Assembly (NCBI GenBank): GCA_000720535.1
Contig: JOAZ01000028.1
Location: 1-64,000, forward strand
Direction: 5' to 3'
DNA length: 64,000 bases
Source: Streptomyces halstedii
GTDB taxonomy: Bacteria; Actinomycetota; Actinomycetes; Streptomycetales; Streptomycetaceae
Positions 24,906 to 39,047 of the stretch are shown piece after piece. The notes beneath the pieces were generated by a model, which did not search any database, was not told the origin of the DNA, and saw nothing but the letters and a program-made list of their open reading frames with translations. Every line of letters starts with the position of its first letter. Position 1 is the stretch's first letter. A program made the translations under genes and the position numbers.

Positions 24906-24932
24906 CTCCGACCCACGCGGTCGGGCGTGTCG
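24906..24932 (-). promoter_or_regulatory. Conserved leader element of the rpsJ operon
   Basis: A 27-nt stretch identical at 26 positions to one in the rpsL leader (39021-39047). On the minus strand it reads CGACACGCCCGACC then GCGTGGGTCGGAG; the core CCGACC-(GCGTG)-GGTCGG folds into a 6-bp hairpin with a 5-base loop. A GTTCCAG heptamer follows within 30 bases in both leaders. The function is unknown; a regulatory or antitermination element is plausible. Confidence 0.6.
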
Positions 24933-25203
24933 CATCCCCTCTACGAAGATCTCCCGAAGGATTTCCCAACCAAGGGGGTGCGGGCCGAAACCGCGCTGCC
25001 GGGGGCGAAACCCCACCGGGTGCCTGGTCAGCGCCCCACTGACGCTTCCCGGAAGATTCCCGTACGTCCGGCCCGAAGGGGCCGACGAGTACTGTGGGAC
25101 TCGCTTCCGGTCCTCCCGGCGGGAGGCGCGCAGCATTGACACTCAACCGAGCAACCTGGCTAGTGTGACACACGGCCTGCGGCGCTGGCCAATCGGGTCG
25201 GGA

Positions 25204-25231
25204 ATCCTACCCCCTACGAGGGACCGGTCAA
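25204..25231 (-). promoter_or_regulatory. rpsJ (S10 operon) promoter
   Basis: Minus-strand TTGACC (25226-25231), 16-base spacer, TAGGAT (25204-25209): a close match to principal-sigma promoters of Streptomyces. It predicts a 5' leader of about 350 bases. The gene-free interval 24846-25491 otherwise holds the conserved leader element and, beyond the promoter, about 260 bases of GC-rich sequence with no gene or repeat I can support. Confidence 0.7.
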
Positions 25232-25491
25232 ACGCAGACGGCCGCGCGGGGGGTCGCGAGCCCGCCGTTCAGGTGCCGGCCGCTGGCTCGTGGGGGGGGG
25301 TCGGCCCTCTTGGCATATGCCGCCGGAATGGTGGGCTCGCGGACCTGGCGCCCGTCCGGCCCGTGTTCACCGCACGGCAGGAGCGGGGGACGCGGTGGAC
25401 GTATATAGGGTGCGGACACCCCGGGGCTGAGCCCTTCCCGCGCGTCCCACCTCGCGGCGATCAAGATGGGGGCGCGGCCGCCGCGGGAACG

Positions 25492-25698
25492 TCAGCGCGG
25501 CGCCACGTACGCCAGGAAGTCGGCCCACGCGGGACCGCCCACGGCGAAACGCGGGCCTGCGGCGTTCTTGGAGTCCCGGACGTGCACCGCCGCCACTGTT
25601 GCCGCGACCTCGACGCAGTCGGGCCCGTCGTTGGTGCTGTGGCTGCTCTTGCGCCACAGCAACGCGGAGTCGCCCCCGGCGTCGGACTTGAGGATCAT
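25492..25698 (-). CDS. DUF397 protein, copy 1
   Basis: 68-aa small protein with the DUF397 hallmarks WRKSSHSTNDGPDCVEVA, VHVRDSKN and the terminal WADFLAYV. DUF397 proteins are typically encoded beside WhiJ-like XRE regulators in Streptomyces and are thought to act as their partners. This copy is the most divergent of the three, at the downstream end of the series that starts with the XRE gene. Confidence 0.9.
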   Translation of the reverse strand: MILKSDAGGDSALLWRKSSHSTNDGPDCVEVAATVAAVHVRDSKNAAGPRFAVGGPAWADFLAYVAPR

Positions 25699-25722
25699 GT
25701 CTCTCCTCGCACTTCGGGAACG

Positions 25723-25929
25723 TCAGCCCTGCGAGGCGTACGCAACGAACCTGGCCCACGCCGGACCGGCCACGGCGAAACGCGGGCCCTCGGCGTTCTT
25801 GGAGTCCCGGACGTGCACCCCGCCAGAGGCAGCCGCGACCTCGACGCACTCAGGGCCGTCGCTGGTGCTGTAGCTGCTCTTGACCCACGTCAGCGCGGAA
25901 CCGTCTCCAGTAGCGGACTTGAGAATCAC
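25723..25929 (-). CDS. DUF397 protein, copy 2
   Basis: 68 aa, W-VKSSYSTSDGPECVEVA type with VHVRDSKNAEGPRFAV and WARFVAYASQG. From the stop codon back over about 167 bases it is nearly identical to copy 3 (two base differences that I can count), while the first 18 codons differ. It starts from an ATG within the 25-base gap after copy 3. Confidence 0.92.
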   Translation of the reverse strand: MILKSATGDGSALTWVKSSYSTSDGPECVEVAAASGGVHVRDSKNAEGPRFAVAGPAWARFVAYASQG

Positions 25930-25954
25930 GCCTCCCCCTCACGCTTTCGGAATG

Positions 25955-35802: not shown

Positions 35803-35959
35803 TGGGTCCTCCTGGAGTGGTTCTGTACGCCTTGCTTCATCGGCGCCAGGTGATCTTTGCTGGAATGCCGGTGCCGGGGGCATCCGACGCGTGAGCGAAC
35901 TCGGCGTCGCATGCCCTGCCGGGCTCCGGTGACAAGCCTAAAGCGTGTACTCGGGTGAG

Positions 35960-38089
35960 TTACTCGCCCTTGGCCTTCGCGATGATCTCCTCGGCGACGT
36001 TCCGCGGAACCTCGGCGTAGGAGTCGAACTGCATCGAGTAGCTTGCGCGACCCGAGGTCTTGCTGCGGAGGTCTCCGACGTAGCCGAACATCTCCGAGAG
36101 GGGCACGAGGCCCTTCACGACGCGAGCGCCGCTGCGCTCCTCCATGGCCTGGATCTGGCCACGGCGGGAGTTGAGGTCGCCGATCACGTCACCCATGTAG
36201 TCCTCGGGCGTGGTGACCTCGACGGACATCATCGGCTCCATGAGCACGGGGGACGCCTTGCGGGCACCCTCCTTGAACGCCTGCGAACCGGCGATCTTGA
36301 AGGCGAGCTCCGAGGAGTCGACCTCGTGGAAACCACCGTCGAGAAGGATGACGCGGACGCCGACCATCTCGTAACCGGCCAGGATGCCGAACTGCATGGC
36401 TTCCTGGGCACCCGCGTCCACCGAGGGAATGTACTCCCGGGGGATGCGGCCACCGGTGACCTTGTTGACGAACTCGTAGGACGCGTCGCCACCCTCGATG
36501 GGCTCAAGGGCGATCTGCACCTTCGCGAACTGACCGGTACCACCGGTCTGCTTCTTGTGCGTGTAGTCGACGCGCTCGACGGCCTTGCGGATCGTCTCGC
36601 GGTACGCGACCTGGGGCTTGCCGACGTTCGCCTCGACGCGGAACTCGCGCTTCATGCGGTCGACGAGCACCTCGAGGTGAAGCTCGCCCATACCACCGAT
36701 GATGGTCTGGCCGGTCTCCTCGTCGGAGTGCACCTGGAAGGAGGGGTCCTCCTCGGAGAGGCGCTGGATGGCGACACCCAGCTTCTCCTGGTCACCCTTG
36801 GACTTGGGCTCGATGGCGACCTCGATCACCGGCGCCGGGAAGTCCATGGACTCCAGGATCACCGGGTTCTTGTCATCCGACAGCGTCTCACCGGTGGTGG
36901 TCTGCTTCAGGCCCATGACGGCGACGATGTCACCGGCGCCCACCGACGCGATCTCCTCACGCTTGTTCGCGTGCATGCGGTAGATCTTGCCGATGCGCTC
37001 CTTCTTGCCCTTGACCGAGTTCAGCACCGCGGTGCCGGCCTCAAGGCGACCGGAGTAGATCCGGACGAAGGTGAGCTTGCCCAGGTGCGGGTCGCTCGCG
37101 ATCTTGAACGCGAGGCCGGAGAACGGCTCGTCGTCCGAGGGCTTGCGCGTGACGACCAGCTCCGGGTCCTTGACGTCGTGGCCCTCGATGGCCTCGACGT
37201 CCAGGGGGGAAGGCAGGTAGCGGACGACCGCGTCGAGCAGGGGCTGGACGCCCTTGTTCTTGAACGCGGTGCCACAGAACACCGGGGTGACGGTGACCGA
37301 GTCGGCGCCGCCCTTCGACGCCAGGGTGATCCGGCGGATCGCCTCGTGCAGCTGCTCCTGGGTGGGCTCGACGCCCTCCAGGTACAGCTCCATCATCTGG
37401 TCGTCGTTCTCGGAGACGGATTCGAGCAGCTTGCCGCGCCACTCCTGAGCCGCCTCGACGAGGTTCTCGGGGATCTCGACGGTGTCGTACATCTCGCCCT
37501 TGGGCGCGTCGTCCGACCAGACGAAGGCCTTCATCGACACGAGGTCGACGACGCCCTTGAAGTCGGCCTCGGCACCGATGGGCAGCTGCATGACCAGCGG
37601 AACCGCACCCAGGCGGTCGACGATCATGTCGACGCAGCGCAGGAAGTCGGCACCGGTGCGGTCGAGCTTGTTGACGAAGCAGATACGCGGCACGCCGTAG
37701 CGGTCCGCCTGTCGCCAGACGGTCTCGGACTGCGGCTCGACGCCGGCGACACCGTCGAACACGGTGACGGCGCCGTCCAGGACGCGGAGGGAACGCTCCA
37801 CCTCGACGGTGAAGTCCACGTGGCCCGGGGTGTCGATGATGTTGATGGTGTGGTCAACATCGTTCAGGGGCCAGTGGCAGGTCGTCGCGGCGGACGTGAT
37901 CGTGATGCCGCGCTCCTGCTCCTGCTCCATCCAGTCCATCGTGGCGGAACCCTCGTGGGTCTCACCGATCTTGTAGCTCACACCGGTGTAAAAGAGGATC
38001 CGCTCGGTGGTGGTCGTCTTCCCCGCGTCGATGTGGGCCATGATCCCGATGTTGCGGACCTTGGCCAGGTCAAGCGAAGTGGTGGCCAT
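35960..38089 (-). CDS. fusA: Elongation factor G
   Basis: Translocase GTPase, 709 aa, with [19 protein letters not shown] (G1), [19 protein letters not shown] (G3), NKLDR (G4), and the domain IV/V blocks [18 protein letters not shown] and [10 protein letters not shown]. Preceded by rpsG after 38 bases. Confidence 0.98.
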
Positions 38090-38127
38090 AAGGCTCAGTC
38101 TTCTCTCGGTTTCGATGGGGTGAGCGA

Positions 38128-38598
38128 CTACCAGCGGTAGTGCGCGAAGGCCTTGTTGGACTCGGCCATCTTGTGGGTGTCCTCGCGCTTCTTGACCGCG
38201 GCGCCGAGACCGTTGGAGGCGTCCAGCAGCTCGTTCATGAGGCGCTCGGTCATGGTCTTCTCGCGGCGGGCGCGGGAGTAACCGACGACCCAGCGCAGCG
38301 CGAGGGTGGCGGCGCGACCGGGCTTGACCTCGATCGGCACCTGGTAGGTGGCGCCACCGACACGGCGGGACTTGACCTCAAGCGAGGGCTTGACGTTCTC
38401 AAGCGCGCGCTTCAGCGTGATGACCGGGTCTGCGCCGGTCTTCTCGCGGAGGCCTTCCATGGCGCCGTACACGATCCGCTCGGCGGTGGAACGCTTGCCG
38501 TTGAGCAGGATCTTGTTGATCAGCGAGGTGACAAGAGGAGAACCGTAGACCGGGTCGATGATGACCGGGCGCTTCGGGGCGGGGCCCTTACGAGGCAT
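38128..38598 (-). CDS. rpsG: 30S ribosomal protein S7
   Basis: 156-aa head-nucleating protein, [20 protein letters not shown] and [20 protein letters not shown]. Two bases after the rpsL stop region. Confidence 0.98.
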
Positions 38599-38600
38599 TC

Positions 38601-38972
38601 TTACTTCTCCTTCTTGGCGCCGTAGCGGCTGCGGGCCTGCTTGCGGTTCTTGACACCCTGGGTGTCGAGCGAGCCGCGGATGATCTTGTAACGAACACCC
38701 GGCAGGTCCTTCACACGGCCACCACGCACGAGCACGATGGAGTGCTCCTGCAGGTTGTGTCCCTCACCCGGGATGTAGGCCGTGACCTCGATGCCGGAGG
38801 TCAGGCGCACACGCGCGACCTTACGGAGCGCCGAGTTCGGCTTCTTCGGGGTGGTCGTGAACACACGCGTGCAGACACCACGACGCTGGGGCGAACCCTC
38901 GAGCGCGGGCGTCTTGTTCTTCTCGACCTTGTCCTGCCGGCCCTTCCGGACCAGCTGCTGGATCGTAGGCAC
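38601..38972 (-). CDS. rpsL: 30S ribosomal protein S12
   Basis: 123-aa decoding-centre protein, [20 protein letters not shown]. The two streptomycin-resistance hot spots carry the sensitive-type lysines ([10 protein letters not shown] and [11 protein letters not shown]). First gene of the str operon rpsL-rpsG-fusA-tuf. Confidence 0.98.
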
Positions 38973-39020
38973 TACTTCTCCGGTTTCTGTGTGCCGTTCG
39001 TGAAACTAACCTGGAACACT

Positions 39021-39047
39021 CTCCGACCCACGCGGTCGGGTGTGTCG
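39021..39047 (-). promoter_or_regulatory. Conserved leader element of the rpsL operon
   Basis: Matches the rpsJ leader element (24906-24932) at 26 of 27 positions; the only change is A for G in CGACAC(A/G)CCC. The hairpin CCGACC-(GCGTG)-GGTCGG and the following GTTCCAG heptamer (11 rather than about 30 bases downstream) are kept. It ends about 50 bases before the rpsL start. Confidence 0.6.

Follow-up and report, generated by a model that had tools for sequence, protein, structure and literature searches.

A short sequence shared by the rpsL and rpsJ leaders of Actinomycetes suggests one signal for joint control of ribosome production

Why do two separate ribosomal protein operons begin with almost the same 27 nucleotides? 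The question is raised by a 64,000-nucleotide stretch of the Streptomyces halstedii genome (contig JOAZ01000028.1, positions 1 to 64,000 of the forward strand; hereafter the window, to which coordinates refer), where an earlier note had pointed to a shared element in the leaders of the S10 and str operons. One copy (24906..24932, minus strand, CGACACGCCCGACCGCGTGGGTCGGAG) lies upstream of rpsJ (S10; 24537..24845, minus strand), the first gene of the S10 operon, and the other (39021..39047, minus strand, CGACACACCCGACCGCGTGGGTCGGAG) upstream of rpsL (S12; 38601..38972, minus strand), the first gene of the str operon. The identity of 26 of 27 positions given in the note was correct when recomputed, and the two leaders fail to align outside the element, in agreement with its view that this is no general duplication. 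Our comparison of sequences suggests one undescribed signal that jointly controls ribosome production. The reading that we favor, with about even confidence, is a cis-acting control site that stands once at the head of each str or S10 transcription unit and is most likely recognized in leader RNA that is still being transcribed.

Model R1, built from sequences of the class, matched the rpsJ copy with 48.6 bits (expectation value, E, 5.1e-9) and the rpsL copy with 42.8 bits (E 9.5e-8). With filters off, these were the only two matches in the window below E 0.05, the third best standing at 0.058, and nowhere else in the window were 19 positions or more shared with the rpsJ copy. In the 7.74-megabase (Mb) assembly, the exact core CCCGACCGCGTGGGTCGG is present at the two window copies alone; with up to 3 mismatches it was found at 76 assembly sites, and since the reversed pattern gave 59, we take these looser matches as background. 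At the element, no Rfam 15 family scored above its gathering cut-off.

The earlier note had named absence from other Streptomyces leaders as refuting, and there the element was found: a 361-base rpsL-leader query matched 60 of 61 genomes of the genus, and all but one of those 60 (G206) gave a further match of about 25-34 nucleotides at the element, the further matches that were compared falling inside rpsJ-leader matches. Across the class Actinomycetes, model R1 matched 109 of 118 genomes at E 0.01, once or twice each among the matches listed. Among the nine genomes without a match, five (G008, G022, G024, G036, G053) also had no rpsL found in the assembly, three (G014, G083, G097) have a completeness of 70-77%, and in one (G106) rpsL is present but the element is not; one matching genome (G016, E 0.0019) showed neither rpsL nor rpsJ within the 2-kilobase (kb) stretch around its match. 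A search with ACACNCCCGACCGCGTGGGTCGG and up to 3 mismatches, which imposes no requirement for ACAC or CCC, found sites in 176 of 197 class genomes, the reversed control being rare. In a draw of 149 genomes from the phylum, 42 matched at E 0.1, comprising 12 of the class and 30 of other classes; the 87 of the non-matching genomes that are unlisted may include class members. None of the 30 genomes of other classes matched below E 1e-4 (best G369, 1.6e-4), and for the 15 matches examined among them neither rpsL nor rpsJ lay within the 2-kb stretches; a long open frame says little about whether such matches are coding, since in DNA of this kind true leader sites are overlapped by long open frames too. 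The element thus appears to belong to the class.

To place the element relative to genes, we sampled 80 class genomes, one per genus as far as possible and leaving out ten genera whose genomes had low completeness; 75 of the 80 yielded rpsL and 73 yielded rpsJ. The element stood upstream of rpsL in 68 of 74 scorable regions (L024 was too short), including genomes of only 1.2-1.4 Mb (G025, G125), and the six genomes whose rpsL leaders lack it (L063, L088 (f26), L097 (f3) and L098-L100 (f36)) keep a leader-type or promoter-type copy at rpsJ. Upstream of rpsJ, a leader-type copy was present in 30 of 70 scored regions, G080 and G098 (upstream region not retrieved) and L053 (too short) being left out. 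The other 40 comprise L100, with the promoter kind of copy found in family f36, and 39 with neither kind by the leader filter, of which L098 has the promoter kind.

When named GTDB genomes were scanned for the exact pattern, at least 121 matches in 120 stretches were listed, of which 70 lay upstream of rpsJ and 49 upstream of rpsL, all 119 in sense orientation. The two that could not be placed lie at stretch ends, L292 running visibly into an rpsL start and L256 being near a contig end. Genera named for 80 of the stretches include Streptomyces, Nocardioides, Knoellia, Brevibacterium, Micromonospora, Actinoplanes, Arthrobacter, Nocardiopsis, Frankia and Microlunatus. The proposal of a conserved cis element common to the S10 and str operons is therefore upheld, and among the exact matches listed the element is confined to rpsL and rpsJ.

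What is conserved is the sequence CGACACRCCCGACCNCGKG and not a stem. The consensus over 68 rpsL and 31 rpsJ leaders is CGACACRCCCGACCNCGKGGGTCGG, in which R is G or A (T in three) and K is G or T; the underlying table includes L100, whose copy is of the promoter type seen in f36, and because its rows had to contain ACAC and CCC, the invariance of these bases is partly built in. G10, C15, G16 and G18 never change except in L100; conservation is highest in the 5' half and in the CG.G of the supposed loop, and lowest at bases 14 and 20-24. A GTTCCAG said to follow the stem in both leaders belongs to the genus, where it occurs in 30 of 30 rpsL and 19 of 30 rpsJ leaders at unequal spacing (3-5 versus 20-38 nucleotides after the stem); class-wide, positions +25 to +44 are unconserved.

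In the window, a promoter-like site stands upstream of each copy, TTGACC-N16-TAGGAT for rpsJ (25204..25231, minus strand) and TTGACC-N17-TACGCT for rpsL (39167..39195, minus strand), both predicted by pattern scan and sharing the TTGACC that the earlier note had seen. Across the class, TTGAC-N16..19-TANNNT occurred at -220..-60 of the element in 51 of 68 rpsL leaders, as compared with 0.13 in shuffled sequences, and in 66 rpsL regions the element lay 15-223 nucleotides downstream of the best predicted start. Between the element and the start codon TANNNT was depleted (3 of 68 rpsL leaders versus 9.3 shuffled; 0 of 30 rpsJ leaders versus 3.9), which rules out a second promoter between element and gene. 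The rpsL copy is thus predicted to fall in the transcribed leader, and the claim of a position in the 5' leaders of ribosomal protein operons is sustained by predicted promoters, mainly those of rpsL. Because the distance to the start codon varies (59-175 nucleotides for rpsL, 67-253 for rpsJ), occlusion of the ribosome-binding site is disfavored. An attenuator with an intrinsic terminator is likewise not apparent, TTTT being found from +25 to +75, up to the start codon, in 2 of 68 rpsL and 2 of 30 rpsJ leaders.

The rpsJ copies follow the distance to the preceding tuf gene. In 65 genomes with tuf and rpsJ on one stretch, a leader-type rpsJ copy was present in 0 of 32 with a tuf-rpsJ gap below 249 nucleotides, 7 of 13 with a gap of 249-330 and 18 of 20 with a gap above 330, the two exceptions among the last (L098, L100) being f36 genomes with a promoter-type site. 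A tidy reading is that rpsJ requires its own copy only where it heads its own unit.

Two helices add to this picture within the genus. In 30 rpsL leaders a helix termed P1 (39046..39094, minus strand, in the window), which by the alignment fold ends at TTCG directly 5' of ACAC, was paired in 96.2% of cells as compared with 93.9% in shuffles and 25-55% in slid versions, with 18 doubly changed cells versus 5.6. In 29 rpsJ leaders a different helix with the same CG end (CGCA...TGCG; 24931..24982, minus strand), likewise directly 5' of ACAC, was paired in 96.0% versus 94.1%, with 16 doubly changed cells versus 7.2, a weak covariation carried by two pairs only. An upstream helix in rpsL leaders of family f19 gave 11 doubly changed cells versus 2.7. 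These structures were derived from the alignments used to test them, which favors them. Choosing the best upstream hairpin sequence by sequence proved too permissive as a criterion, and a Gibbs search for a second class-wide leader motif was rejected: its rpsL candidate was spread over offsets from -109 to -19 and stood moderately above shuffles, which had fewer restarts.

The observed basis for a control site in nascent RNA is therefore its conservation, its position below predicted promoters at rpsL, its sense orientation, one copy per apparent unit head, its restriction to rpsL and rpsJ among the exact matches listed, and covarying upstream helices in the genus. Because of the leader position, the orientation, the variable distance and the one-per-unit pattern, we favor a site read in the nascent RNA or by the elongating polymerase, and we infer that it is read as RNA, by a protein, and that its effect falls on the unit as a whole, not on translation of the first gene. 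In leaders with a P1 helix, this helix would present ACACRC and the adjoining CCCGANNNCGKGG to one trans-acting factor, which may be a ribosomal protein or an elongation factor; this factor would set the extent to which the entire unit is transcribed or kept, and both operons might thereby be adjusted together.

Four sets of findings weigh against such a reading. The first concerns the stem CCGACC/GGTCGG with loop GCGTG (P2; 24908..24924 and 39023..39039, minus strand), by which the earlier note had defined the element. It is the minimum-energy fold of both copies, with 12 and 15 of 200 shuffles folding as well or better. In the class alignment A1, which holds 85 of 99 rows with 14 left out, the stem paired in 83.9% of cells as compared with 84.0% in shuffles, with one doubly changed cell; compensatory changes thus gave no support to this hairpin, which we reject on covariation as the conserved feature. 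A lack of covariation in the stem had been named in the earlier note as refuting; it counts against the stem and leaves the conserved cis element standing. The stems of the element are invariant in its own genus and hence carry no covariation information there. An alternative stem, CGAC/GTCG plus CCCG/CGKG, was paired in 88.2% versus 87.8%, a value matched by 1 of 500 shuffles, and is too weak to claim because it has one doubly changed cell and a slid version scores higher on covariation. GGGC/GCCC around GACAC was rejected (57.6% paired, zero doubly changed cells), and the CCCG/CGKG hairpin was uninformative because its pairs never vary or break. A G at position K showed no overall link to a broken P2 stem (12/60 versus 7/38, p=1.0), the tendencies in the two leaders being opposite (S12 p=0.087, S10 p=0.018).

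The lack of any visible pairing constraint on the stem bears as well on an autogenous translational operator, in which a ribosomal protein of the operon would bind the P2 hairpin and block initiation at rpsL or rpsJ. In Escherichia coli, the str and S10 operons are indeed controlled by S7 and L4, which bind the message, according to the available text of PMC10931766. Here the compensated binding-site structure expected of an autogenous leader was not seen in P2, and the covarying P1 lies outside the shared element; moreover, the element stands far from the start codon and at varying distances, one ribosomal protein would have to control two operons without a common gene product, and similarity to the organism's own 16S and 23S ribosomal RNA (rRNA) is weak. 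The best stretches at the rRNA locus had 2-3 mismatches over 12 nucleotides, the one with 2 lying in the 16S-23S spacer, and a search for mimicry of, or pairing with, the organism's own rRNA gave nothing clear. We consider such an operator very unlikely.

The second set concerns the upstream helices. Two of five P1 measures were not above shuffles: pairs with a double change numbered 5 versus 3.5 for rpsL (78 of 500 shuffles as high) and 2 versus 2.2 for rpsJ (492 of 500), and pair types 17 versus 17.1 (348 of 500) and 17 versus 16.1 (165 of 500), respectively. Doubly changed cells were weak in the rpsJ leaders of f19 (9 versus 4.9) and f4 (3 versus 1.1), and P1, for which the genus, f19 and f4 were tested, lacks a common sequence. 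In class-wide folding averages CCCG often pairs upstream, and no single fold stands out. Third, the start sites are predictions from sequence, and an rpsJ promoter and the element were scored together in six regions, of which the window's alone is strong; because of this, the leader position at rpsJ rests on the window, the tuf-gap pattern and possible read-through from tuf.

The fourth set comes from family f36, whose three representatives lack the element upstream of rpsL. There, the 12-mer GCGACACGCCCG instead precedes the promoters of rpsJ and rRNA at largely fixed spacing and behaves as a promoter-linked DNA site at ribosome genes, a placement for which a hairpin acting purely as RNA offers no explanation. 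In 17 of 20 f36 rpsJ regions examined (39 located), CGACACGCCCG(A/G)G was followed by a TTG-like box; in L341 one base of the site is mismatched, and L344 and L357 carry a leader-type copy in its place. Counted from the start of the site, and including L098-L100, a -10-like box by a permissive pattern lay 37-39 nucleotides away in 18 of 20, and a second CGAC(A/G)CGCC lay no more than 20 nucleotides upstream in 6 of 20. When 26 f36 genomes were searched with a tolerance of 3 mismatches, many more sites appeared, against a background of zero to four matches to the reversed pattern on each strand of a genome. Examination of 27 non-rpsJ sites revealed 18 that resemble rRNA operon (rrn) sites and 9 elsewhere. 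In the rrn-like sites, the distance from GCGACACGCCCGGGNTG to a -10-like box was 49-51 nucleotides in 12 of 18 and 106-107 in four, none being matched in two; a 16S start lay 470-625 nucleotides downstream in 12 of 18, and the other six regions end before one is visible. The sequence GCGACACGCCCGGGNTG, with varying first bases, was seen before 16S at the f36 loci L386, L389-L397, L407 and L408, about 50 nucleotides before a -10-like box in six of them. A chance origin of the shared 12 bases together with the shared gene set is by our estimate unlikely.

These f36 sites and the absence of stem covariation favor a reading in DNA, by which a sequence-specific regulator of ribosome genes would bind the core GCGACACRCCCG within the first 200 or so base pairs of the transcribed region in most of the class and upstream of the -35 box in f36, where the protein would be an activator. 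Such a protein would account for the near-fixed spacing to -10-like boxes at both rrn and rpsJ, and CCGACC/GGTCGG could serve as a palindromic operator. Both kinds of site occur upstream of rpsJ in L342 (G399) and L099 (G094), and in the rrn region L396 a gene and a terminator-like repeat end, by eye, so close before the site that an earlier promoter would hardly fit. However, a fixed position relative to the promoter is largely kept in f36 but not at leader-type rpsL sites, which lie at variable distances downstream of predicted starts; the placed exact matches are all sense-oriented, a leader-type and a promoter-type site have only about 12 nucleotides in common, and an exact copy was found on neither strand of the 1.8 kb preceding 16S in eight named non-f36 regions (Streptomyces, three of Arthrobacter, Pseudarthrobacter, Nonomuraea, Tsukamurella and Actinomyces; 8 of 10 listed matches), where the best near-copies had 1-4 mismatches and the lone 1-mismatch match was 1.67 kb away. 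Nor do we claim an excess of extra 12-mer copies near leader-type sites, because the 33 found, as compared with 22.7 in shuffles on average, equal the shuffle maximum. A DNA site throughout the class therefore seems to us possible and rather doubtful.

A broader proposal embraces both kinds of site. We tentatively suggest, at less than even confidence, that in the class Actinomycetes a single undescribed regulator of ribosome production recognizes GCGACACRCCCG, early in the str and S10 units in most members and upstream of rRNA and rpsJ promoters in f36, so that rRNA and ribosomal protein synthesis would share one site there. If the same factor does read the f36 sites, the supply of rRNA and of ribosomal proteins would be tied by one site. 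The coordination of ribosomal protein synthesis in actinomycetes is little known, and a near-invariant site at the heads of both main ribosomal protein units offers a direct handle for finding its binder.

Two further explanations address the most conserved bases themselves. The element could be the site of an RNA-processing or stability factor, with cleavage at ACACRC giving the str and S10 messages their mature 5' ends; in folding averages the two A of ACAC are mostly unpaired (A2 and A4, 0.58 and 0.66 in rpsL, 0.69 and 0.74 in rpsJ), and the variable distance to the gene would be tolerated. We judge this unlikely, as to our knowledge some 12 near-invariant bases across a class exceed the needs of bacterial endonucleases, and processing would leave the promoter sites of f36 unexplained. 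The bases could instead encode a conserved upstream reading frame, GAC ACR CCC GAC (Asp-Thr-Pro-Asp), in which the variable R of the 5' half falls at a wobble position; an upstream start without a stop within 80 nucleotides was present in this frame in 45 of 68 rpsL leaders, as compared with 33 and 37 in the other frames. In rpsJ leaders, by contrast, it is the least open frame (12 of 31 versus 15 and 17), the third bases of the first GAC and of CCC show no synonymous change (which the filter partly forces), and GAG and GAA are the sole replacements of the second GAC. Frame openness in rpsJ and the lack of synonymous changes make a coding role scarcely credible.

Short oriented sequences early in long transcription units that recruit elongation factors are likewise known in boxA, with NusB-S10, and in the ops element of RfaH, their sequences being unlike the present element.

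Among systems described in the literature, the L4 site of the S10 leader and the S7 site of str in E. coli likewise exert cis control of these operons, but each operon there has a separate site and ligand, the S7 site lying before its own cistron inside str, whereas here one leader sequence would serve both (available text of PMC10931766). The rpsL-leader attenuators of Naville and Gautheret (2010) are also leader elements upstream of rpsL in several bacteria; the available text of PMC2965389 names Listeria, Xanthomonas, Pseudomonas and Rickettsia, with streptococci upstream of fusA and no actinobacterial example, and describes an intrinsic terminator without common sequence, in contrast to the rarity of a U-run after the present element. 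The leaders of Eckert and Weinberg (2020; PMC7247131) and the rpsJ motif of Peptostreptococcaceae (PMC11109978) are, in the text available, also class- or family-wide ribosomal protein leader RNAs found by comparison, but are structural, whereas the present element is conserved as sequence; actinobacterial entries in the accessible part of PMC7247131 are L17 and L31 (the latter also in Corynebacteriaceae and Coriobacteria), and S10 leaders are mentioned there in Firmicutes. No description of the element was found in the searchable literature, a search to which most subscription papers and supplementary tables were closed. It is undescribed in the available text of PMC10931766, PMC7247131, PMC2965389, PMC5784534, PMC11109978, PMC8269248, PMC8914203 and PMC8388888, and a search of the accessible literature text for its letters returned papers whose titles and abstracts point to other subjects. 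Premature transcripts in Streptomyces clavuligerus include ribosomal leaders, rpsJ not being named in the text available (PMC8269248).

Several minor observations were made beside these. In the rpsJ leader of the genus, a second well-conserved and, by eye, apparently structured stretch (GCGAGTCCCACAGTACTCG ... GGACGTACGGGAATCTTCC) lies at 25045-25112 (minus strand) and was not seen in rpsL, and in the rpsJ leaders of f4 (L331-L338, L085) the 3' arm mostly ends in CCGG, and an upstream CCGGUNCC could by eye pair with GGGGNCCGG instead. An exact GCGACACGCCCGGGTTGCA in promoter-like context was found in L409 (G106), 216 nucleotides before a 534-amino-acid ABC-type ATPase frame that is, by eye, possibly a translation-related ABC-F protein. 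One class genome has a second, 55% identical rpsL (G017:C140:32188-32556). Elsewhere in the window, three tandem copies about 231-232 bases apart lie beside the rpsJ promoter (25559-26099), the L17 ribosomal leader RF03132 was recovered at 8935-8990 (minus strand, 76.7 bits), and an Rfam match to the Streptomyces small RNA scr4677 (27663-27901, plus strand, 114.9 bits) lies between the S10 and str operons.

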